41,126 nucleotides of DNA from a virus, in the IMG/VR virus record IMGVR_UViG_3300011440_000017, positions 1 through 41,126 of that record. One strand, written 5' to 3'. The first letter of the stretch is position 1. Each line of letters opens with the position of its first letter. Below the pieces are notes generated by a model, which ran no database searches, was not told the origin of the DNA, and saw only the letters and a program-made list of their open reading frames with translations. Made by a program: the position numbers and the translations under genes. Shown here piece by piece: positions 15,560 through 33,121 of this stretch.

Positions 15560-15610
15560 ACTACCGCTCATCGGAAAAAATTTGACACCCCAGAAAGCCT
15601 AGGTTAATAT
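15560..15610 (+). promoter_or_regulatory. Strong element-associated promoter for the exported-protein genes
   Basis: ACTACCGCTCATCGG (15560-15574) precedes seven A/T bases and TTGACA (15582-15587). A 17-base spacer leads to TAATAT (15605-15610), the best promoter by consensus in the window. The upstream element keeps the same seven-base gap as the copies at 2018, 5534 and 40939, but differs at three positions. It would drive the three exported proteins. Confidence 0.8.
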
Positions 15611-15686
15611 TCCTGTCTGTGATCCAGTGGCCTTGGGGGCAACGCCACTGGAACCTGCCCGCCCCCGACCCCTTAGAGGATCAATC

Positions 15687-16466
15687 ATGAATAAGGCCAT
15701 TCTGGCAGCTGCCCTCATGCTGCTTATCGGTACGGCACAAGCCGTCGAAGTTGACAATACTGTCAACACCAATTCAACCTCCGGCGCAATAGCGGAATCG
15801 GAATCGGAATCCCACGCTGGCGCATCTTCCGATAACCTCAACGTTGTGAACCCCAACCAGTCCACTGAACTCTCCGTTGGGGTTGGTCTTTCACAGACGT
15901 TTGAAGCGTCCATAATCCCCCGCACCACCACCCAAAAGGTCAAGACGAATGCAGCCGTCCCGCTGGCTGCTGCTGTTTCATTCTCGTCTGACTACTGCGG
16001 CGGCACCGTTTCAGCGGGTGCATCTGGCTTCGGTCTGAGCATCGGCGGCAGTGGCCCGAAAATGGATGGCAATTGCCAGTCACTCCGCCGCGCTGAAAAG
16101 TTCGGCACCGCTGCTGCCAATGCCTACAATGCTGGGTTGCATGATATGGCAAGCCGCCTGATCGTCATGCAGGTGTGGGAGATTTGCATGGCGGAAACCA
16201 ACGCCAAGCAGGACCACGAACCCCGTACGGAAGGCGCATGCGAGCGGCTTGGTCTGCTCAGCGGCGATATCCCGCAGCCCAGAAGTGAGCCCGCTGAGCC
16301 GTCGCAACAGTCGTACCCGACCCCTCCGCAGGACTACCAGCCGCGTCAGCCCCGTGGTGAAGTGACTGAACCCTCTGACGATAGCCGGAAGCTGGCGGCT
16401 ACTACTATCCGGGGCTCCAACGGCCAGTCTCTTGAACTGGACGAAGAGGGCAAAAAGGTCAAGTAA
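15687..16466 (+). CDS. Exported phage protein with Sec signal peptide, 259 aa
   Basis: The start at 15687 (AGAGGA upstream) gives a textbook signal peptide, MNKAILAAALMLLIGTAQA, cleaved near residue 19; an upstream in-frame extension would bury it. The mature part is Ser/Thr/Asn-rich, then has a CGGTVSAGASGFGLSIGG stretch followed by a second Cys and a helical segment (SLRRAEKFGTAAANAYNAG) with two more Cys. The Pro/Gln-rich tail looks disordered. I recall phage-associated proteins with the same C-G-G-x-x-S-A-G pattern but no established function. Periplasmic or surface location is predicted. Confidence 0.8.
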   Translation: MNKAILAAALMLLIGTAQAVEVDNTVNTNSTSGAIAESESESHAGASSDNLNVVNPNQSTELSVGVGLSQTFEASIIPRTTTQKVKTNAAVPLAAAVSFSSDYCGGTVSAGASGFGLSIGGSGPKMDGNCQSLRRAEKFGTAAANAYNAGLHDMASRLIVMQVWEICMAETNAKQDHEPRTEGACERLGLLSGDIPQPRSEPAEPSQQSYPTPPQDYQPRQPRGEVTEPSDDSRKLAATTIRGSNGQSLELDEEGKKVK

Positions 16467-16493
16467 TCCCTTTGCAAAGCCAATGCGGAAGCC

Positions 16494-16525
16494 GGGGGGC
16501 AGCCGCGTTGGTTCAACCGCCCCCC
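16494..16525 (+). other. Intercistronic hairpin between exported-protein genes
   Basis: GGGGGGC (16494-16500) pairs with GCCCCCC (16519-16525). The loop contains a smaller stem, GTTG/CAAC. No T-run follows, so it may adjust the ratio of the two exported proteins or protect mRNA rather than terminate. Confidence 0.5.
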
Positions 16526-16544
16526 ATTAGATAGGAGTTATACC

Positions 16545-16928
16545 ATGAAGAACATCCTCGTCGCTCTCGCCCTGCTCGCCGTGTCGTTCGGTGCCAATGC
16601 GGTTGATCTGGGCATCGCTGCCGGTACTTTCGAGTCCGGTGCCCAATCGCAGGTCGGTTCGCAGTCGGCGGGTGGCTCGCAGGCCGCCCTGTTCGGAGTG
16701 ACCGGTCAGCAGTCGTCTGCCGTCGCCGGCAATACCGCCTTCGGTGCCACCCAGCTTTCCGGCAACGACAGTGCCGCGCAGTCGGGCTCCATTGGCTTCA
16801 CCCAGCAGCAGGGTTCGGCAGCGGCTCTCGGCCTCGCGGCTTCGGCCAATGCCAACATCGCGGCCCAGACCGGCATCGGCTTCGGCCAGAACCAGATGCA
16901 GACCGTGTACGTCTACATCCAGCCGTGA
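16545..16928 (+). CDS. Exported Gly/Ser/Gln/Ala-rich repetitive protein, 127 aa
   Basis: A clear signal peptide (MKNILVALALLAVSFGANA) with AGGAG ribosome site. The mature ~108 residues are built almost only from Gly, Ala, Ser, Gln, Asn, Thr, Phe and Val, without Cys, Lys or His. Irregular repeats (SQVGSQSAGGSQAALFGVTG, then QQSSAVAGNTAFGATQLSGN) lead to a hydrophobic end, TVYVYIQP. Composition and alternating polar/apolar pattern suggest a beta-solenoid or a fibril-forming protein of the curlin kind; homology to curlin is not claimed. A terminator follows. Confidence 0.75.
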   Translation: MKNILVALALLAVSFGANAVDLGIAAGTFESGAQSQVGSQSAGGSQAALFGVTGQQSSAVAGNTAFGATQLSGNDSAAQSGSIGFTQQQGSAAALGLAASANANIAAQTGIGFGQNQMQTVYVYIQP

Positions 16929-16975
16929 TCGGTAAAAACCTAAGGCCCGGTTACGGCCGGTAACCTATGGTTCAG

Positions 16976-17010
16976 AGGCCGGGAATCCAATCCTTCCCGG
17001 CCTTTGTTTT
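16976..17010 (+). terminator. Rho-independent terminator
   Basis: AGGCCGGGAA (16976-16985) pairs perfectly with TTCCCGGCCT (16994-17003) around an eight-base loop, followed by TTGTTTT. A smaller stem, GGTTAC/GTAACC, lies just upstream. The gene at 17027 therefore depends on read-through or an unseen promoter. Confidence 0.88.
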
Positions 17011-17026
17011 AACCCCGGAGAATCCC

Positions 17027-17293
17027 ATGAGAATCCTGCTACTCGCTTCGTTCATGCTTCTGGCCTGTGCCGATGCGTGGGCTGCTATCGGTTCCGGTAC
17101 CATCCTCCAACCCAGCCCCCAGAATCCGGGCCCCTTCCCACCCCATATGCAGCAGTGGCCCGCCCCTAGTCCTCCCAACTATCCGGTGCCAGTCTACACC
17201 GTCCCCGTTATCACCAGCATTCCCCAGCTTCCGCCTGCTATCGTTCACACTGGCGGGAACCTGCCACCGACACCGTATAACCCTACTCCGTAG
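17027..17293 (+). CDS. Exported proline-rich protein with TGGNLPP motif, 88 aa
   Basis: The start at 17027 (GGAG upstream) yields a hydrophobic signal, MRILLLASFMLLACADAWA. LLAC fits a lipobox imperfectly, so a lipoprotein or a signal peptidase I product (cut after AWA) are both possible. The mature part is very proline-rich (PSPQNPGPFPPHMQQWPAPS) and ends in HTGGNLPPTPYNPTP. The TGGNLPP motif recurs in the two leftward genes at 23989 and 24449, with 17 identical bases around one copy. The protein is probably disordered and acts in the envelope. Confidence 0.7.
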   Translation: MRILLLASFMLLACADAWAAIGSGTILQPSPQNPGPFPPHMQQWPAPSPPNYPVPVYTVPVITSIPQLPPAIVHTGGNLPPTPYNPTP

Positions 17294-17545
17294 GGGCAAG
17301 AATTCCCCGGCACCGCTGGACCTTTTCTCCGAGAGGTCTGCTAGAAGGAATGCAGTACGTGAGCCGTGGACCGGTCGGCTCACACTATATGGTGTTTAAC
17401 GTGTCCCCTTCGGCTACATCCCCGCCCCCCTGTGCGGATGTAGCTAGGGCCTACGGGCCCGGCCGCCGTCGTGAGACTCGCCTGTCAGAAGGGGGCACGC
17501 CAAACACCAGGCATTAAGCGAGGGCCCCCGAAAGGGGGCCTTCTG
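17294..17545. other. Structured non-coding region between convergent genes
   Basis: No gene is supported in these 252 bases. Perfect hairpins are GTGAGCCG/CGGCTCAC (17359-17366 with 17376-17383) and GCTACATCC/GGATGTAGC (17413-17421 with 17436-17444), then the GNRA-loop hairpin at 17523-17540. Three stable stems in a row go beyond what one terminator needs. The region could encode a small RNA or act as a bidirectional transcription block. Confidence 0.6.
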
Positions 17546-23988: not shown

Positions 23989-24438
23989 TTATCTACGACC
24001 CGGGCCGAACCTGCCACCCATCCGGTCACCCATCGGCATAGGTGGCAGGTTCCCGCCTGTCCGCATGTGCGGCGGAACTATGCCAGTATTACCCGGCACT
24101 GGCGGCTGGTTTCCCCCGGTCCCCATTTGCGGGAATTGACCGGGCGGAGGAATACCCATCGGAGGCATATCGCCACCCGTACCCATTGGCGGCATTGGCG
24201 AAGGAGGCAAATTGCCACCCGTACCAACCATGCCCGGGGGTGGCGGCTCAGCCATGGGAGGCGGGCCCATGCCACCCGGGCCCATTGGCATGCCCGCACG
24301 CGGCCCTAGACCGGGAGGGGTCACAACGTTACCGGGACCGGGGCCCATTACACCGCCACCGGGAGGGGGTGCAATCATTGGCTTCCGGAGTGCGCCTGCC
24401 ATGCGCTCGGGTGCCATTGCTGGATACGGAATTGCCAT
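23989..24438 (-). CDS. Pro/Gly/Met-rich protein with four TGGNLPP-type motifs, 149 aa
   Basis: Almost wholly low complexity, probably disordered. The second half carries four copies of a motif: GTGGNLPPSP, GTGGDMPPMG, GTGGNQPPVP and RTGGNLPPMP. One copy also occurs in the next gene (24449) and one in the exported protein at 17027. AAGGAG precedes the ATG. It sits among ejection proteins, so a virion or assembly role is likely. The rich methionine content (over ten percent) is unusual. Confidence 0.6.
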   Translation of the reverse strand: MAIPYPAMAPERMAGALRKPMIAPPPGGGVMGPGPGNVVTPPGLGPRAGMPMGPGGMGPPPMAEPPPPGMVGTGGNLPPSPMPPMGTGGDMPPMGIPPPGQFPQMGTGGNQPPVPGNTGIVPPHMRTGGNLPPMPMGDRMGGRFGPGRR

Positions 24439-24448
24439 TTCATTCTCC

Positions 24449-25075
24449 TTAACGCTTGGGTGGGAACTGGCCGGGGGCAGGAATGCCCATCAGGTTTGGA
24501 TCAATAGGACCACCATAGGACCCGGGCCTTTGGACTGGTGCAGGAAGTGAAAATGGCATCATTGAACCGGCAGCATTTCCACCGGGAGCGGCACCACCTA
24601 CGGGAGTAGGCGGCAAATTGCCACCTGTGCCAACCATCGGTCCAAAGGCGGGAGCAAATGCCGGGGGTGGGGGAGGCGGCGTAGACGGGGCAGCAGGCGG
24701 CGGCGCTACAGCAGCAGGAGGGGCAGGCGGCATTGCTGCCAACGTAGCCGCATGCTGTGCCGCCTTTGCCTCTTCCTGTTGCTTGATCGGACCATAGACA
24801 AAATCACGGGCAAGCGGGTCCACCTTCATACTCCACTTGCCTAGGGGGTCCTTTGATATGGCCTTAGCCATGAGTCCATGAGCCTTGCCTTCCACCTTCT
24901 GGTGCAAGTCCACGAACTTGCCAGCGGCACGGTCTACCTTATCGCCTATCTTGTGAAGGCCCAATTTCTTACCCAACGGATCATACTTTTTCAGCGACTT
25001 GACAAGCTTGTTACTGGCCTTGCCACCCGGGAGGGTAGAACGGACTGCCTTTTTGATTGAACTAAAGAAGCCCAT
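24449..25075 (-). CDS. Virion-region protein with basic helical head and Pro-rich tail, 208 aa
   Basis: The first ~110 residues are basic and helical (SSIKKAVRSTLPGGKASNKL, DRAAGKFVDLHQKVEGKAHG). An Ala/Pro linker follows, then GTGGNLPPTPVGG and a GIPAPGQFPPKR end that mirrors GIPPPGQFPQ in the next gene. The basic head could bind DNA or membrane lipids. It overlaps the end of the S74 protein gene by 14 bases and is probably part of the ejection set. No family recognised. Confidence 0.6.
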   Translation of the reverse strand: MGFFSSIKKAVRSTLPGGKASNKLVKSLKKYDPLGKKLGLHKIGDKVDRAAGKFVDLHQKVEGKAHGLMAKAISKDPLGKWSMKVDPLARDFVYGPIKQQEEAKAAQHAATLAAMPPAPPAAVAPPPAAPSTPPPPPPAFAPAFGPMVGTGGNLPPTPVGGAAPGGNAAGSMMPFSLPAPVQRPGSYGGPIDPNLMGIPAPGQFPPKR

Positions 25076-26493: not shown

Positions 26494-26949
26494 TCATGCT
26501 TCCTCCCGATATATTGCCGGAGTAGCCCTAGCCTTTAGGTGGGGCCAATGAGTTGCCATTTTTTCTGTGCCATGGTACATGAGACAATCGCTACCATCAG
26601 AGTAATAGTCTGGAAGCGTGGAAATTAGCTCATATCCCAGATTCTCTACCAGCTTAATAGCTGACCTATTGAATGATGAGACAGGGCTATACACATGCTC
26701 CACACCTAGCTGACGGAACAAGTAGTCATGCCCGGCCCACCAGAAGGTGCGGGATACTCTCCGCCCTTTGGCTATCCACACATGCAAGTGAATACTCTTG
26801 CCGTTGTATTGGTCAAATACGGCGATAGCAATAGGCTCATTGTCATCGTACTCTGCAAGCACCTGTGCGCTCTGCGTAAATAGAGCCCCGCCCATGAGGC
26901 TGGAATACTCATTGAGTACAAGCCTGTTTGTGTTGATCCAGCGGCTCAT
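26494..26949 (-). CDS. GNAT-like acetyltransferase fold protein, 151 aa
   Basis: Start set at 26949 by the ATGA overlap with the nozzle gene. The sequence has the order expected of a GNAT fold: PIAIAVFDQYNGKSIHLHVW, a basic loop (AKGRRVSRTF), then YLFRQLGVEHVYSPVSSFNR and SAIKLVENLGYELIST, like the C-terminal V-x-x-x-N-x-x-x-x-x-L/V-x-E-x-x-G-F segment. Similar proteins sit beside tail genes in other podoviruses, where they are annotated as internal virion proteins or acetyltransferases. Catalytic activity is uncertain. Confidence 0.65.
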   Translation of the reverse strand: MSRWINTNRLVLNEYSSLMGGALFTQSAQVLAEYDDNEPIAIAVFDQYNGKSIHLHVWIAKGRRVSRTFWWAGHDYLFRQLGVEHVYSPVSSFNRSAIKLVENLGYELISTLPDYYSDGSDCLMYHGTEKMATHWPHLKARATPAIYREEA

Positions 26950-28532
26950 ATCAGGCCCCCAGCTTCCCACACCCATTCCACTGCTGCAACGGATAGCGGG
27001 GAGGATGTAGAAACACGCAGCTGCCACGCCAAAGCGTAACCCAATACGTTAGCCGATACCCATGGACGATAAACGTTCTCTAGTCCTGCCCAGTTAGCAG
27101 CGTCCCAGAGACTCACGTCCCACACAGCGTTACCCTGCGCGAAACTAGGAGTGGGTTGAAGCAGGAACGGGTCGAGCCGGAAGTCCGGCAAGGCTCGCAT
27201 CTTGAAAGAGGGCTTGACTTCGGTATGAAATATGGGTCGCATGAACTTGGCATGTTTGTTGGCCGTCGGGTTGTCCAAGTAGCTATACGCGCTGAACGCA
27301 TATGCTTCTATTGGATTGCCACCTGTACCATCGCGTAGAACCTCGTCCACATGCTCGTTAGGAGTGAGTATCAATACCCGTCCATTGTCAGTACCCATAT
27401 ACACGGTGCGATCGAGCGTGCGGAGCGTGCGAACAGGATAGTCGAACTTGCCCCATGCTCCGGTAAGCAGATTCATCACCAGCTGGACTGGGGCTTGGGC
27501 TCTCTCGTCATAGATATTAATGGCGATCAGAGCAAGCTCCGACTGGAACCCCACTTCAACAGGGAAGCGCGCGGGAGTAGGCGCAGCTAGTCTAATGAGC
27601 GTCCGGGAGATGCGGCGGGTCAATACGTTTGATAGCAGGATTTCAGTAGCCGAACCCTGAATCAAAGTGGACAACGGAATGAGGCCGCGTCGGGACAGGA
27701 ACAAAGTATCCCCGCCGTAGTCTGCCACAGCGCGCGGACCAAGCGGCGGGGCAACAAAGAAGATTGCATCCAAAGTCCAATCCGCAGAATTGGAAGGATC
27801 ATTGCCAGAATATGATGCAATCTCGCCAGTCGAAGTGATGAATAGGAGTCTGTCATCCAATCCCTCACCTGTATCCATGCTCCATCGTGCCATGGCAATT
27901 AGGTATCCGCCACGACGGAAAAGACCACCTAGGAAAAACGGCTTGGCTTCGCCACCTACTGAGTCGATGGGCAAATACCATGCAGTCATGGAGCCGGTTT
28001 GAAGGAACCACAACCGGCCTTTATGTACGAGGACAAAGTTGAACGTGTTTGGATTGACGCCCTTTATTTCGCCGGGGGCGGCGGGTGTAGTTACCTGTGT
28101 GAACTGAGTCCACGTAGTACCATTGAAAAGCTTTGACTGTGCACCGTTCACGGTAATCAGAAATTGTCCTGCGGCGGTTGCAAAGTTTGTCCACTCCAAC
28201 TGCCCGTTAGTAATGGCAGTTACCGCCGCAGGAGCATTGCTGCTCACGCTAATGTCAAAAATGCCAACGTCCGTAGACGCAAATTTCTTGAACGATCCGT
28301 CCACGGCATTGTATGAGAAGATGGTCTTAATGGGGTTGACCAGCCCGGTCACCCATTCCTGATAGCCATTGCGCACAGTAAGTGTGCCGGTATCAGGGAA
28401 GAAATTCATGGCATCAATCATGAACTCAGGGCCCATGATTGCCAGCGGGTCAAGATCGTTGATTCCGCCCACGGGAGCAGGTAGCGCAAGCGCTTGACTG
28501 ACCTGTACTTTTTGCTGGCGGAGCCCTCTCAT
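26946..28532 (-). CDS. Tail nozzle protein (tail tubular protein B-like), 528 aa
   Basis: The start at 28532 overlaps the adaptor stop as ATGA and has GGGAG upstream; a TTG nine bases earlier is less likely. The beta-rich sequence repeats short blade-like segments (GRLWFLQTGSMTAWYLP, DDRLLFITSTGEIASYSG, DTLFLSRRGLIPLS) typical of the propeller-containing nozzle of T7-like tails. The opening (LPAPVGGINDLDPLAIMGPE, then FPDTGTLTVRNGYQEW) also fits. It would form the distal tube through which DNA leaves, below the adaptor ring encoded upstream. Confidence 0.85.
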   Translation of the reverse strand: MRGLRQQKVQVSQALALPAPVGGINDLDPLAIMGPEFMIDAMNFFPDTGTLTVRNGYQEWVTGLVNPIKTIFSYNAVDGSFKKFASTDVGIFDISVSSNAPAAVTAITNGQLEWTNFATAAGQFLITVNGAQSKLFNGTTWTQFTQVTTPAAPGEIKGVNPNTFNFVLVHKGRLWFLQTGSMTAWYLPIDSVGGEAKPFFLGGLFRRGGYLIAMARWSMDTGEGLDDRLLFITSTGEIASYSGNDPSNSADWTLDAIFFVAPPLGPRAVADYGGDTLFLSRRGLIPLSTLIQGSATEILLSNVLTRRISRTLIRLAAPTPARFPVEVGFQSELALIAINIYDERAQAPVQLVMNLLTGAWGKFDYPVRTLRTLDRTVYMGTDNGRVLILTPNEHVDEVLRDGTGGNPIEAYAFSAYSYLDNPTANKHAKFMRPIFHTEVKPSFKMRALPDFRLDPFLLQPTPSFAQGNAVWDVSLWDAANWAGLENVYRPWVSANVLGYALAWQLRVSTSSPLSVAAVEWVWEAGGLI

Positions 28533-29248
28533 GTATTCCAACTCCCGTCCGGTACATTTTGCCCGCTGATATAGAAGTAATCAATCCTGCTATCAAGGTG
28601 GATGACAGGAGCCCCGGTTGTCTGTGCTTTTTCAGCATTCAGCATGTAGTCAAACTGGTTGCCTAGGTCCGTGGCATCCATGCCCTTTGCATTCCATAGT
28701 TTGAACTTGACACCCGCAGTCATCAGGAAGCTATCGAATACAGGCTCATCCGCATCCGCTGTTACCTTGTCCTTATACATCAACGTTACTGGATCAAATA
28801 CCCAGTTACGAGAGATATAGTAGAAATTAAGTGTTTCACCTGCGGGGGGAACAGGAAATACAGTGAACTTATCACGCAGGATACGATACCTGTAATACAC
28901 ACCTACAGACACGATCCCGAACTGCACCCATGACCAGCCCTGCGGACTCATGGGACCAAACATGGGGCGCTGATTGGTACTCGCCCATTGCGTTTGATTG
29001 ACTATCCTTCCGAAATCCGCTGGAAGGTCAAACTCAGAAGCCACACCATCGCAAAGAATGGTAAGTGTTTTCTCAAGGAATTGCCAATCGTGAACCTTGA
29101 CCAGCTGAGTGCCTAGAGAATTGACCAGACCGAGCACTTGAAACCCGGTCTGGTCATCAAACGGAGAAAGGATCGTAGGAACCTGCGGAAGTCCAAGCTC
29201 CTGCAATGCTTGATTTACAGTGTTGATAGCAGAGTCTTGGACGGCCAT
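28529..29248 (-). CDS. Head-tail adaptor (tail tubular protein A-like), 239 aa
   Basis: Residues at the start (AINTVNQALQELGLPQVPTI) and a central DWQFLEKTLTILCDGVASEF / DLPADFGRIVNQTQW pattern match the gp11-type adaptor of podoviruses. So do FTVFPVPPAGETLNFYYISR and the helical C-terminus (LMTAGVKFKLWNAKG). Length is slightly above the usual ~200. Placement directly before the nozzle gene, with a four-base overlap, supports this. It would bind beneath the portal and receive the fibres and nozzle. Confidence 0.85.
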   Translation of the reverse strand: MAVQDSAINTVNQALQELGLPQVPTILSPFDDQTGFQVLGLVNSLGTQLVKVHDWQFLEKTLTILCDGVASEFDLPADFGRIVNQTQWASTNQRPMFGPMSPQGWSWVQFGIVSVGVYYRYRILRDKFTVFPVPPAGETLNFYYISRNWVFDPVTLMYKDKVTADADEPVFDSFLMTAGVKFKLWNAKGMDATDLGNQFDYMLNAEKAQTTGAPVIHLDSRIDYFYISGQNVPDGSWNT

Positions 29249-29993: not shown

Positions 29994-32000
29994 CTAGGTA
30001 TACAGGGTTTTACCGGCGACATATGCCTCGATTGCTTGGATCGTCGCTAGGGGTGTCGCCACGGTTGAGCCCCTAACAATAAGCTGGTTGAGTTGGCCGT
30101 TGAATACAAGCCCGCCGCTTCCGCGAGAGCCGACATACATGGGATATGACAGGAAGGGGCCTGTTCCTAGGTCAGTACCTATGGTATTTACGACCGCCCC
30201 ATTTCTGCGAAGGGAGGTTACGTCCCCTGCAATATCAGCAATGCCGGTATAGTATGAGGTATCGGGGGCAGGAATGCCAAGGCTGGTTCCGGCTTGCGCA
30301 ACAACGGTGCCTTTTACGGTCCATGAAACGCCGGGGGTTGCGTTTGAATTAGGCGCAAATAGCCTAAAGGTACCGTTATTGAGCGTTGTGTCAACGGATA
30401 GCTCACATACGCAACCTATCGTAGCGTCACTTACCTTAGTCACTCCGGCAAAGACCGTGACCTTATCCATAGCACCGAAGTTGATATTGCTTGTGACATA
30501 GAAATCATTGGACCCGTCGAACCGCAGATAGTGCGGGAAGCCCGCGCTATCGTAATTAGTAGCGGTAGTGACGCGTTGGAAGCGGGTGGCAACTAGGCCG
30601 TATTCCAGCTGTGGTTGAATAAGACGGAAGGTGAGGTCAACTGTACCACCGATAGCTATTGCCATATCAATGCCGACACGGGCAAGATTAGTGGCCGCAC
30701 CTGTGAATGTTCGTGCCGCAGTGAATAGCTGCTCCGTAGCAATTATGGTTTGCACAGAATTAGTATTGGTGACAAAGGCTGCACCGTTGTACTCGGATAT
30801 AAAGAGCCTACGAAGCGGGTTGTTAAATCCTACGCTTGGATCGCCAGCCAATAGCTGTATTCTGGCAGAAGAAACCCACGGTTGACCGATGGCAGCAGCA
30901 ACGCCCGTGCCCATATAAATGTCAGCGAATCCAAGGGCTCCGGAAGTATTAGTGCCGCTTACCCGATAATCGAAATATGCCCGGCCATCAGGCAACGTGC
31001 CTTTGGCTATCACTTCGCGCGTGATTCCGGCAACTGCGGAGACACTCCAGCCAGTAGGCAAAGCACCCCCCGAACCAATGACTCCAACCACTGCTAGCGA
31101 GAGGTCTGAAATAAGCTGATTCCGACGTGCCGAAACTACGGGCCTGTTAGCGGCGGTCGCCTGCGTGCCATGGATGCCGGGGATTTCCTTAACACTGACA
31201 GACCGGACAACGAAATCACATGCGCCACCACTCCGCTTAACCTCAATAGCAGAGGAACTGGTAGCCGTAAAAATGACATGTGCAATAGTGCCAGTAGTGC
31301 CATTGGTAAGATTGACACCGTTATGGGAAAGAATCCAGCCTCCCGTTGCCACTGAGGCAATATCTACATATCCCTCATAGACTTTACCAACCGTCAGAAT
31401 CCCATCTTGACGCACACCCATAATAGCGCCAGTAGTAACCACCCGCGCGCCAGTCGGTACCTGCTGCACGAAATCGCTACCCGTTTCAGCGCCACTTAGT
31501 ACCCAACCTGTAGGCCGCACCGGAGCAGTAGTCCAAGTGCCTGTGGCAAAGTTGCCATTAATCGATAGCTCAGCGCCACGGGCCCGATCATAGCGCTTAT
31601 CCAGTACCAGACCCATGGGCTGTTCAACTGCCGTTACCGGCAGGATACCCAGATTGTCCTGATACATGGTACTAAAATCACTGTAATCGTGCCAGAAACC
31701 GGGCTCTCCGGCGCTGAACAAAAGCTCAGTGACTTGGTTGGGCGAAGGATTGCTCAGCCAATAGGCCAGCATCTTATCATTGATAGTGCCGGGATAAGGC
31801 GCAAGGAGCCTCATCCAAAGGTCGTTGTTTGTGTCGGGGGTCGTGACGGGTAGCCCTAGCTGCCCTAGGAGCCACTGCCTTTCCGCATCACCGTAGGTGG
31901 CGTTCGCGCTCGCCCCCCCAGCCTTGAAAAAACTCAACAAGCCGTCATTGACAGTGCCCCCGCCTGTCGCTACGCGAATGGCATCATTGAGAGTGGTCAT
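29994..32000 (-). CDS. Tail spike/fibre-like carbohydrate-binding protein, 668 aa
   Basis: N-terminal ~90 residues hold two similar turns (GGTVNDGLLSFFKAGG, then PGTINDKMLAYWLS) that may form the virion anchor. The middle has two carbohydrate-binding-like modules with a GxW segment and repeated jelly-roll features (GNFATGTWTTAPVRPTGWVL; QPQLEYGLVATRFQRV). The C-terminal ~180 residues look like a concanavalin/LamG sandwich (YLRFDGSNDFYVTSN, YVGSRGSGGLVFNGQLNQL). It probably binds host surface glycan. It is a second receptor-binding candidate besides the fibre at 17821. Confidence 0.7.
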   Translation of the reverse strand: MTTLNDAIRVATGGGTVNDGLLSFFKAGGASANATYGDAERQWLLGQLGLPVTTPDTNNDLWMRLLAPYPGTINDKMLAYWLSNPSPNQVTELLFSAGEPGFWHDYSDFSTMYQDNLGILPVTAVEQPMGLVLDKRYDRARGAELSINGNFATGTWTTAPVRPTGWVLSGAETGSDFVQQVPTGARVVTTGAIMGVRQDGILTVGKVYEGYVDIASVATGGWILSHNGVNLTNGTTGTIAHVIFTATSSSAIEVKRSGGACDFVVRSVSVKEIPGIHGTQATAANRPVVSARRNQLISDLSLAVVGVIGSGGALPTGWSVSAVAGITREVIAKGTLPDGRAYFDYRVSGTNTSGALGFADIYMGTGVAAAIGQPWVSSARIQLLAGDPSVGFNNPLRRLFISEYNGAAFVTNTNSVQTIIATEQLFTAARTFTGAATNLARVGIDMAIAIGGTVDLTFRLIQPQLEYGLVATRFQRVTTATNYDSAGFPHYLRFDGSNDFYVTSNINFGAMDKVTVFAGVTKVSDATIGCVCELSVDTTLNNGTFRLFAPNSNATPGVSWTVKGTVVAQAGTSLGIPAPDTSYYTGIADIAGDVTSLRRNGAVVNTIGTDLGTGPFLSYPMYVGSRGSGGLVFNGQLNQLIVRGSTVATPLATIQAIEAYVAGKTLYT

Positions 32001-32485
32001 CTGCGGTCCCTCGGGTACCGGTGTTCCTCATCCTCACGGTCCCTGCGATCCCTGTCACGGCCGCCCAAATCTAGCTCGATGCGAACCATGTAGTTCTGGG
32101 GGCAACGATACCGGGGGCGGAAGTTCCATACCCGGTAGCCATCGCGCCGGTTTTCACGATCACGGGTATAACGGCCGTCATCGTAGTAGCGGTTTTCGGG
32201 GTCCATACGACCATAGCGGTCATAACGACCATAGCGGTCATAACGGCCAGCGCGATCATAGCGGTCATCCCGGTTTGCCCAACGGCGGGAAACGCGTTCA
32301 ACGCGCCCGGTCGGGTAGCGATAGAAACAGTAGCGCTGATTTTCGTGGACTAGATAGCCCGTAAAGATCGGGATATTGAACTCGATCGTTGGGCGCCGTT
32401 GTGCCATGCCATCAGTGACGCAGCCCCCGGTTAGGAGGGTTGCGCCCATGACGATAGTGGCTAGCCATGTTTTATTACCGATCAC
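31997..32485 (-). CDS. Putative phage lipoprotein with Arg/Tyr/Asp repeats, 162 aa
   Basis: GTG start, with AAAGG upstream and an ATGA overlap with the next gene. The signal (NKTWLATIVMGATLLTGGC) ends in a lipobox-like TGGC, giving a lipidated Cys at about residue 22; the -3 Thr is less usual. The mature protein has YCFYRYPTGRVERVSRRW, then a tandem RYDRxGRYDRYGR repeat and a very basic/acidic C-terminus rich in D-R pairs. It may coat the inner or outer envelope face during late infection. No family recognised. Confidence 0.65.
   Translation of the reverse strand: MIGNKTWLATIVMGATLLTGGCVTDGMAQRRPTIEFNIPIFTGYLVHENQRYCFYRYPTGRVERVSRRWANRDDRYDRAGRYDRYGRYDRYGRMDPENRYYDDGRYTRDRENRRDGYRVWNFRPRYRCPQNYMVRIELDLGGRDRDRRDREDEEHRYPRDRR
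32209..32265. repeat. Tandem repeats inside the lipoprotein gene
   Basis: CATAGCGGTCAT recurs at short intervals with related CATAACGACC units, producing the repeated D-R-Y-[DG]-R peptide. Such arrays expand and contract by slippage, so repeat number may vary between related phages. Confidence 0.6.
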
Positions 32486-32500
32486 GATTTCTGTTACCTT

Positions 32501-33121
32501 TTACGTTACTGCCGGGCTAGCAGTTGTGGACGAACCGAAGGCCGATTGTGTGGCAATCATCGCAACGCCCGTGCGATTGGTGAAACCAGCTTCGATTGCT
32601 GCGCCATCTGCTACTGCGCCCGCTGCCGTTACCATCTTCGTACCGAAGCCAGTAAATGCAGGGCCAGCGCCAGCATCACGCGAGGAACCTGCACCGAAGG
32701 CCAGAAGCGGCTGAGCAACGTATGGCGCAACGGTGGACACACCAAGGCCGGTTGCACCGCCACCAACGATGGTATTCTTACCGCCACCAATGGCAGTCAG
32801 AATTGCCAGCGTAGCCGCAACCGGAACAGCAGCGGTACTTGCAGGCATCGAAATGCCGGGAGTGTAGTCGTCGGTATAGCCCTTATCCTTGATCGACTGC
32901 GCGGCAGTCGCAGGGGCCGTACCGTTAGCGACATTGATAACCGGGCCGACATTCAAACCGAAGCCGATGCCGGTGCTGAGAGCGCCTGTAGACGCGTTGC
33001 CGGTCTGGTCCTTATCAAGCGGCGAGCCTTTGGGTCCGGAGAACGGACTCATGAGAACGGCCTTGCCGGTAGCAGGATTGGCCGGGAGAGAAACGAGGCT
33101 ACCCATGTTACGAGCAGGCAT
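32501..33121 (-). CDS. Gly/Ala/Thr-rich virion-region protein, 206 aa
   Basis: GGAGG precedes the ATG. Few charged residues; long small-residue stretches (STGIGFGLNVGPVINVANGT, PVAATLAILTAIGGGKNTIV, GGGATGLGVSTVAPYVAQP). The central hydrophobic part could be a membrane segment or a beta-structured shell. It lies between the coiled-coil protein and the lipoprotein, three genes beyond the capsid, so a minor capsid or decoration role is possible. No family recognised. Confidence 0.6.
   Translation of the reverse strand: MPARNMGSLVSLPANPATGKAVLMSPFSGPKGSPLDKDQTGNASTGALSTGIGFGLNVGPVINVANGTAPATAAQSIKDKGYTDDYTPGISMPASTAAVPVAATLAILTAIGGGKNTIVGGGATGLGVSTVAPYVAQPLLAFGAGSSRDAGAGPAFTGFGTKMVTAAGAVADGAAIEAGFTNRTGVAMIATQSAFGSSTTASPAVT

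Follow-up and report, generated by a model that had tools for sequence, protein, structure and literature searches.

Genes A and B for putative exported proteins in uncultivated phages and the predicted pseudoknot in the leader of B

The locus and its transcription signals

Why would a phage place consecutive genes for putative exported proteins between its replication and tail genes, and what would such proteins do to the infected cell? The question is raised by a 41,126-base IMG/VR virus record, here called the window (the whole stretch of DNA that was analysed), in which the + strand carries the early/replication block (1-17.3 kb) and the - strand the late block (17.5-41 kb). The module of genes A, B and C closes the early block, with the primase/VRR-NUC genes on one side and the tail genes on the other. 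The nearest isolated relative judged by the primase is Stenotrophomonas phage BUCT555 (35% identity), and a near-identity DNA search with the window found no match among isolated phages. In BUCT555 an adenylosuccinate synthetase (PurZ-like) gene (L014, 13954-15033) adjoins the primase gene; no such ORF was seen beside the primase gene of the window. The features of the locus are as follows.

15582..15610, + strand: sigma-70-type promoter, TTGACA-17-TAATAT, 10/12 consensus bases
15624..15666, + strand: PK-A, predicted H-type pseudoknot, stem 1 CCAGTGGC/GCCACTGG, stem 2 GGGGGC/GCCCCC
15687..16466, + strand: gene A, putative exported protein of 259 aa
16478..16525, + strand: PK-B, predicted H-type pseudoknot, stem 1 AGCCAATGCGG/CCGCGTTGGTT, stem 2 GGGGGGC/GCCCCCC
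16545..16928, + strand: gene B, putative exported protein of 127 aa
16976..17010, + strand: terminator-like hairpin (AGGCCGGGAA...TTCCCGGCCT) with a T-rich tail between B and C, from sequence and fold
17027..17293, + strand: gene C, proline-rich putative exported protein of 88 aa, accessory
17390..17509, + strand: multi-branched RNA element with a closing stem of about 20 bp, where the two gene blocks converge (z = -7.0, 0/200 shuffles)
17520..17543, + strand: terminator-like hairpin closing the block, the top-listed terminator-like site

The earlier note had described three consecutive ORFs with N-terminal signal sequences at 15582-17293, lying apart from the replication and structural genes and having their own promoter and intergenic RNA structures. 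The signal sequences are borne out by inspection of the N-termini, each of which has Lys/Arg residues, a hydrophobic stretch and an A-x-A-like site, with putative cleavage between MNKAILAAALMLLIGTAQA and VE in A, MKNILVALALLAVSFGANA and VD in B, and MRILLLASFMLLACADAWA and AIG in C; the separate setting with signals of its own is supported as well. As to the promoter, said to be the strongest, it is indeed near-consensus but not unique, being tied with three more sites of the window (2956, 4503 and 9128), and the number of promoter-like sites in the window is not above that in shuffled sequences. Better evidence for this putative promoter than its consensus score is its conservation: TTGACA/C/T-17-TAATAT is found at the equivalent place upstream of A in the relatives L002, L003 and L004, and a weaker version in L008 and L007.

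GC hairpins of a similar kind to that between B and C are present 3' of B in L002, L003, L004 and L007. Ahead of this hairpin, at 16932-16975, a conserved GTAAAAACC...stem...GGTTCAGA follows B in the window, L003 and L004, with GTCAAAAACC in L002. The RNA element at 17390-17509 has no Rfam match; its architecture is kept, with a different sequence, in L008, L003, L004 and probably L007.

The proteins and the spread of the A-B pair

Relatives carry A, B and C as well, and since dN is far lower than dS the three are regarded as real genes. Protein A is composed of the signal-peptide-like N-terminus, a segment rich in S/N/Q/T/A and a core AVPLAAAVSFSSDYCGG...GPKMDGNCQSLRRAEKFG with four conserved cysteines. 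Mature B consists to 74% of G/S/A/N/Q/T, has 3% charged residues and no cysteine, and four long strands are predicted in it at low confidence. Although the three genes are consecutive, as the earlier note had it, the core of the supposed three-gene unit is the two-gene cassette A-B, and C is an accessory: apart from the window it was found only in the nearest relative, L008 (80% identical, dN/dS about 0.09). The motif TGGNLPP is common to C and two proline-rich proteins of the late block (23989-24438 and 24449-25075) and is repeated in one of these.

No direct Pfam or PHROG match was obtained for A, B or C. Searches with tblastn of A and B against isolated phages and of the A core against plasmids revealed no relative of the pair, the A core giving weak pelagiphage/Dickeya-phage matches only. 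AlphaFold2 models were poor (pLDDT 42 for A and 50 for B), and Foldseek with these models returned nothing significant; its matches to pore-forming proteins, the best of which against any solved structure had E 0.018, were discarded, a pLDDT of 50 making them meaningless. Two members of B gave a weak YadA-anchor match (E 0.013). In alignment-to-alignment comparison the core of A resembled, over 50 residues (E 4e-7, probability 92.6%), the family phrog_20531, to which belong the pelagiphage exported proteins HTVC023P gp45, HTVC033P gp46, HTVC202P gp24 and Mosig_00202. Similarly to A, they have a signal peptide, an S/N/T-rich N-terminal part and a core Cys...SxG...FG...D.NC. Unlike A, they are without a B partner; their neighbours are a small membrane protein and an exported protein of acidic character, and an endolysin is often close by.

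Purifying selection acts on both A and B (dN/dS 0.07-0.35 in close relatives), and they are better conserved than the neighbouring replication and tail genes. Identity in close relatives is 76-92% for A/B (52% for A in L007), compared with 35-70% for the primase and 52-80% for the tail gene. In L008 the primase is only 35% identical but A-B-C and the tail gene are close, which suggests that the module can be exchanged.

With the distant relatives found by profile searches, A-B is present in the window phage and in no fewer than 12 further phage lineages. Wherever both genes are seen in a phage locus (17 distinct loci), B comes after A. The exception to direct adjacency is L030, where one RPDQ-LPG-repeat gene lies between the two. 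Proteins with RPDQ(G/S)LPG repeats adjoin A-B in the distant relatives L029 and L030. The neighbours of the pair, named from their sequences (the muramidases alone being Pfam-tested), are DNA polymerase/VRR-NUC genes in the window, L027 and L058, muramidase genes in L025 and L026, a capsid gene in L028, a portal-like gene in L068, tail and polymerase genes in L030 and a recD-like helicase/terminase in L079. Such widely differing settings are expected of a self-contained cassette.

In addition to the phages, two sphingomonads, Sphingomonas sp. IC081 and Novosphingobium organovorum, have chromosomal A-B with a LuxR-type gene alongside, and no phage genes were recognised around these copies. The two LuxR-type HTH genes are similar and lie divergently upstream of A-B (L031, 5905-6141; L032, 6866-7279). 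The presence of A-B beside such a gene in bacteria suggests that phage functions are not needed. These copies, together with one distantly A-like gene of a further bacterium (G1005), are what one would expect if A-B were a host gene pair, an envelope stress or biofilm factor carried for host fitness in long infection and devoid of an anti-phage effect. Against this, A-B is very rare in bacteria and its phage spread is much wider. No further copies of A were found in 299 family-level and 299 order-level genomes, nor of B in 385 class-level genomes, and the 398 phylum-level genomes had one more match to A, a weak one (G1005). We consider a pure host fitness role very doubtful. At 1000-2106 of L053, from a 1.7-Mb bacterial genome, a distant A-like gene was seen, and upstream of it are genes for a TetR-like regulator and for a small exported protein rich in glycine.

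Predicted pseudoknots in the leaders

The earlier note placed a hairpin and a terminator between the genes. The terminator-like hairpin between B and C stands, and the supposed hairpin between A and B is instead predicted to be an H-type pseudoknot tied to the start of B and not a plain hairpin that attenuates. PK-B, which ends 19 nt ahead of the B start codon, and PK-A, which ends 20 nt ahead of that of A, rank first and second by score among the + strand pseudoknots of the whole window.

A pseudoknot is predicted 13-29 nt before the start codon in each of the 19 distinct B leaders (17 phage and two bacterial), at p<0.05 against 200 dinucleotide shuffles in 18 of them. As a background, one is predicted at 13 of 393 other ORF starts of the same records and in 17 of 190 coding windows. 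In the six close loci every pseudoknot ends 17-20 nt before the start codon, and stem-1 arms pair at 97% with their own partner and at 46% with each other's, figures that are biased upward as the arms were picked for pairing; the shuffle tests are free of this bias. Across the 19 leaders both stems and the loops vary freely in sequence. In these predicted folds it is thus the shape alone, not the sequence, that is conserved in the B leader.

The predicted fold leaves the Shine-Dalgarno sequence of B open. In L030 the pseudoknot adjoins B despite the gene inserted between A and B, and protection of the 3' end of A was set aside as its role because the distance is kept to B, not to A. A riboswitch was likewise set aside, no stem or loop sequence being fixed across the 19 leaders, and no Rfam 15 family matches at or above its gathering score. 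That a pseudoknot precedes A in all lineages was rejected: equivalents of PK-A were seen in the window and five close relatives only and not in distant ones. Three of the PK-A cases are not significant under gap-free scoring; by hand, they form a pseudoknot with a mismatch.

Operators of the phage T4 gene 32 type act in autogenous repression by the encoded single-strand-binding protein. As B is exported, autogenous repression of B is unlikely. The T4 gene 32 translational operator itself is an mRNA pseudoknot upstream of the Shine-Dalgarno sequence (PMC535899), and the B leader resembles it in the H-type pseudoknot, predicted in 19/19 cases, that is variable in sequence and lies 5' of an unstructured ribosome-binding site. 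It differs in that the gene codes for an exported protein, UUAAA repeats were not seen, the pseudoknot ends 13-29 nt ahead of the start codon, there is no known binding protein and bacterial copies have it as well. The B leader could be a new kind of cis-acting RNA, namely an H-type pseudoknot kept in shape and free in sequence in phages and bacteria alike, with obligatory control over a single exported, assembly-prone surface protein in an undescribed two-protein phage cassette; we see this as a serious possibility, although not yet as a probable one.

Possible functions of the cassette

Which role would A-B play in the infected cell? Lysis is one candidate. The pair, perhaps with C, could provide an unusual route in which exported proteins damage the envelope or work together with a diverged endolysin, the timing being set by the pseudoknots. 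Muramidase genes (PF11860) are found directly downstream of A-B in L025 and L026, and the pelagiphage homologues of the A core have an M15 endolysin (HTVC023P) or else an amidase (HTVC033P) in their vicinity. Furthermore, the late block of BUCT555 has an endolysin and a holin. None of the window, G869, G870 and G872 yielded a convincing tblastn relative of these two, and Pfam/PHROG scans of the ORFs of the window, G869 and G870 recognised no soluble endolysin, only a single member having matches, of the virion-type SLT transglycosylase kind; diverged endolysins, however, could have been missed by such scans. At most other inspected loci A-B lies beside replication, capsid, portal or tail genes, and chromosomal copies lacking recognised phage genes around them would be odd for a lethal function. 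None of A, B and C matches an endolysin or holin, and a muramidase gene is adjacent in L025 and L026 only. A lysis role has a low probability and is a weaker candidate than the surface-modifying reading.

In the position of the BUCT555 endolysin and holin, the window codes at 29994-33121 for a 668-aa protein and a lipoprotein-like 162-aa protein, and none of its ORFs was recognised as a holin or soluble endolysin. The protein encoded at 26946-28541 of the window, which has an 'amidase' match to phrog_5107, was left out of the lysis genes, since it is syntenic with tail genes and has no Pfam amidase match.

The composition of B points to another candidate. Partial or complete curli operons have been reported in pelagiphages (PMC7029224, PMC9599517), and A-B could similarly form a curli-like amyloid outside the cell, by which cells are aggregated or a matrix is built ('sibling capture', as proposed for the pelagiphage curli genes). 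Like CsgA and CsgB of the curli (type VIII secretion) system, A and B are a pair of exported low-complexity proteins, B has a curlin-like composition, and the layout resembles a nucleator and its subunit. The sequences are nevertheless unrelated and without curlin repeats (X6-Q-X-G-X2-N-X10): QxGxxN was present in none of the 12 A and 12 B proteins tested, no curlin Pfam match was obtained, and the CsgG outer-membrane exporter (PF03783) is absent from all 13 phage records, some of them fragments. Membership in the curli family was rejected on these grounds, and a curli-like amyloid of this sort is improbable.

We tentatively favour a third reading, which we hold as possible rather than probable: A-B, with C as an accessory, would be a moron-like, autonomous cassette whose products change the surface of the infected cell, their stoichiometry being set by the pseudoknot. 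The surface change would probably be directed against superinfection. Counted in favour were the A/B pairing, conservation above that of the neighbours, the signal-peptide-like starts, the pseudoknot before B, the varied settings and the bacterial copies. Similarly to superinfection-exclusion moron cassettes, A-B has its own promoter and terminator-like hairpin, lies between phage modules and has putatively exported products; as far as sequence signals go, it forms the independent transcription unit between phage modules that defines a moron. It differs from those cassettes in the conserved RNA pseudoknots, and no sequence relation to them was shown. Morons are best known from temperate phages, and a tyrosine integrase was not found in the 13 phage records, which was counted against the moron reading. 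The absence from these records of CsgG, an outer-membrane exporter through which B might leave the periplasm, was likewise counted against this reading.

Several steps of the surface-modifying cassette have sequence evidence. Transcription from the dedicated promoter would give a leader beginning close to a pseudoknot, and two Sec-exported proteins would be made from one block. In every lineage a predicted pseudoknot stands just 5' of the B Shine-Dalgarno sequence, and B is followed by a terminator-like hairpin. The pseudoknot, standing upstream of an otherwise open ribosome-binding site, would then set the amount of B relative to A by acting on the access of ribosomes or on the lifetime of the mRNA. 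A, which has four conserved cysteines, may be an anchor or nucleator at the envelope, and B a low-complexity, uncharged, beta-rich subunit that would assemble on A into a layer or fibre. The assembled layer may mask receptors or otherwise keep rival phages off.

An autonomous exported cassette and a leader pseudoknot are each the kind of thing already known. The pair with its obligatory predicted pseudoknot appears to be new, as it had no match in the libraries searched and no description was found in a short literature search. If the surface-modifying reading is right, an envelope-directed gene pair not described before is common to many uncultivated phages, and its second gene is always under a structural RNA element. 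The pair would then offer a compact, testable case of RNA conserved in structure only and a new candidate system for the remodelling of the host surface by phages.
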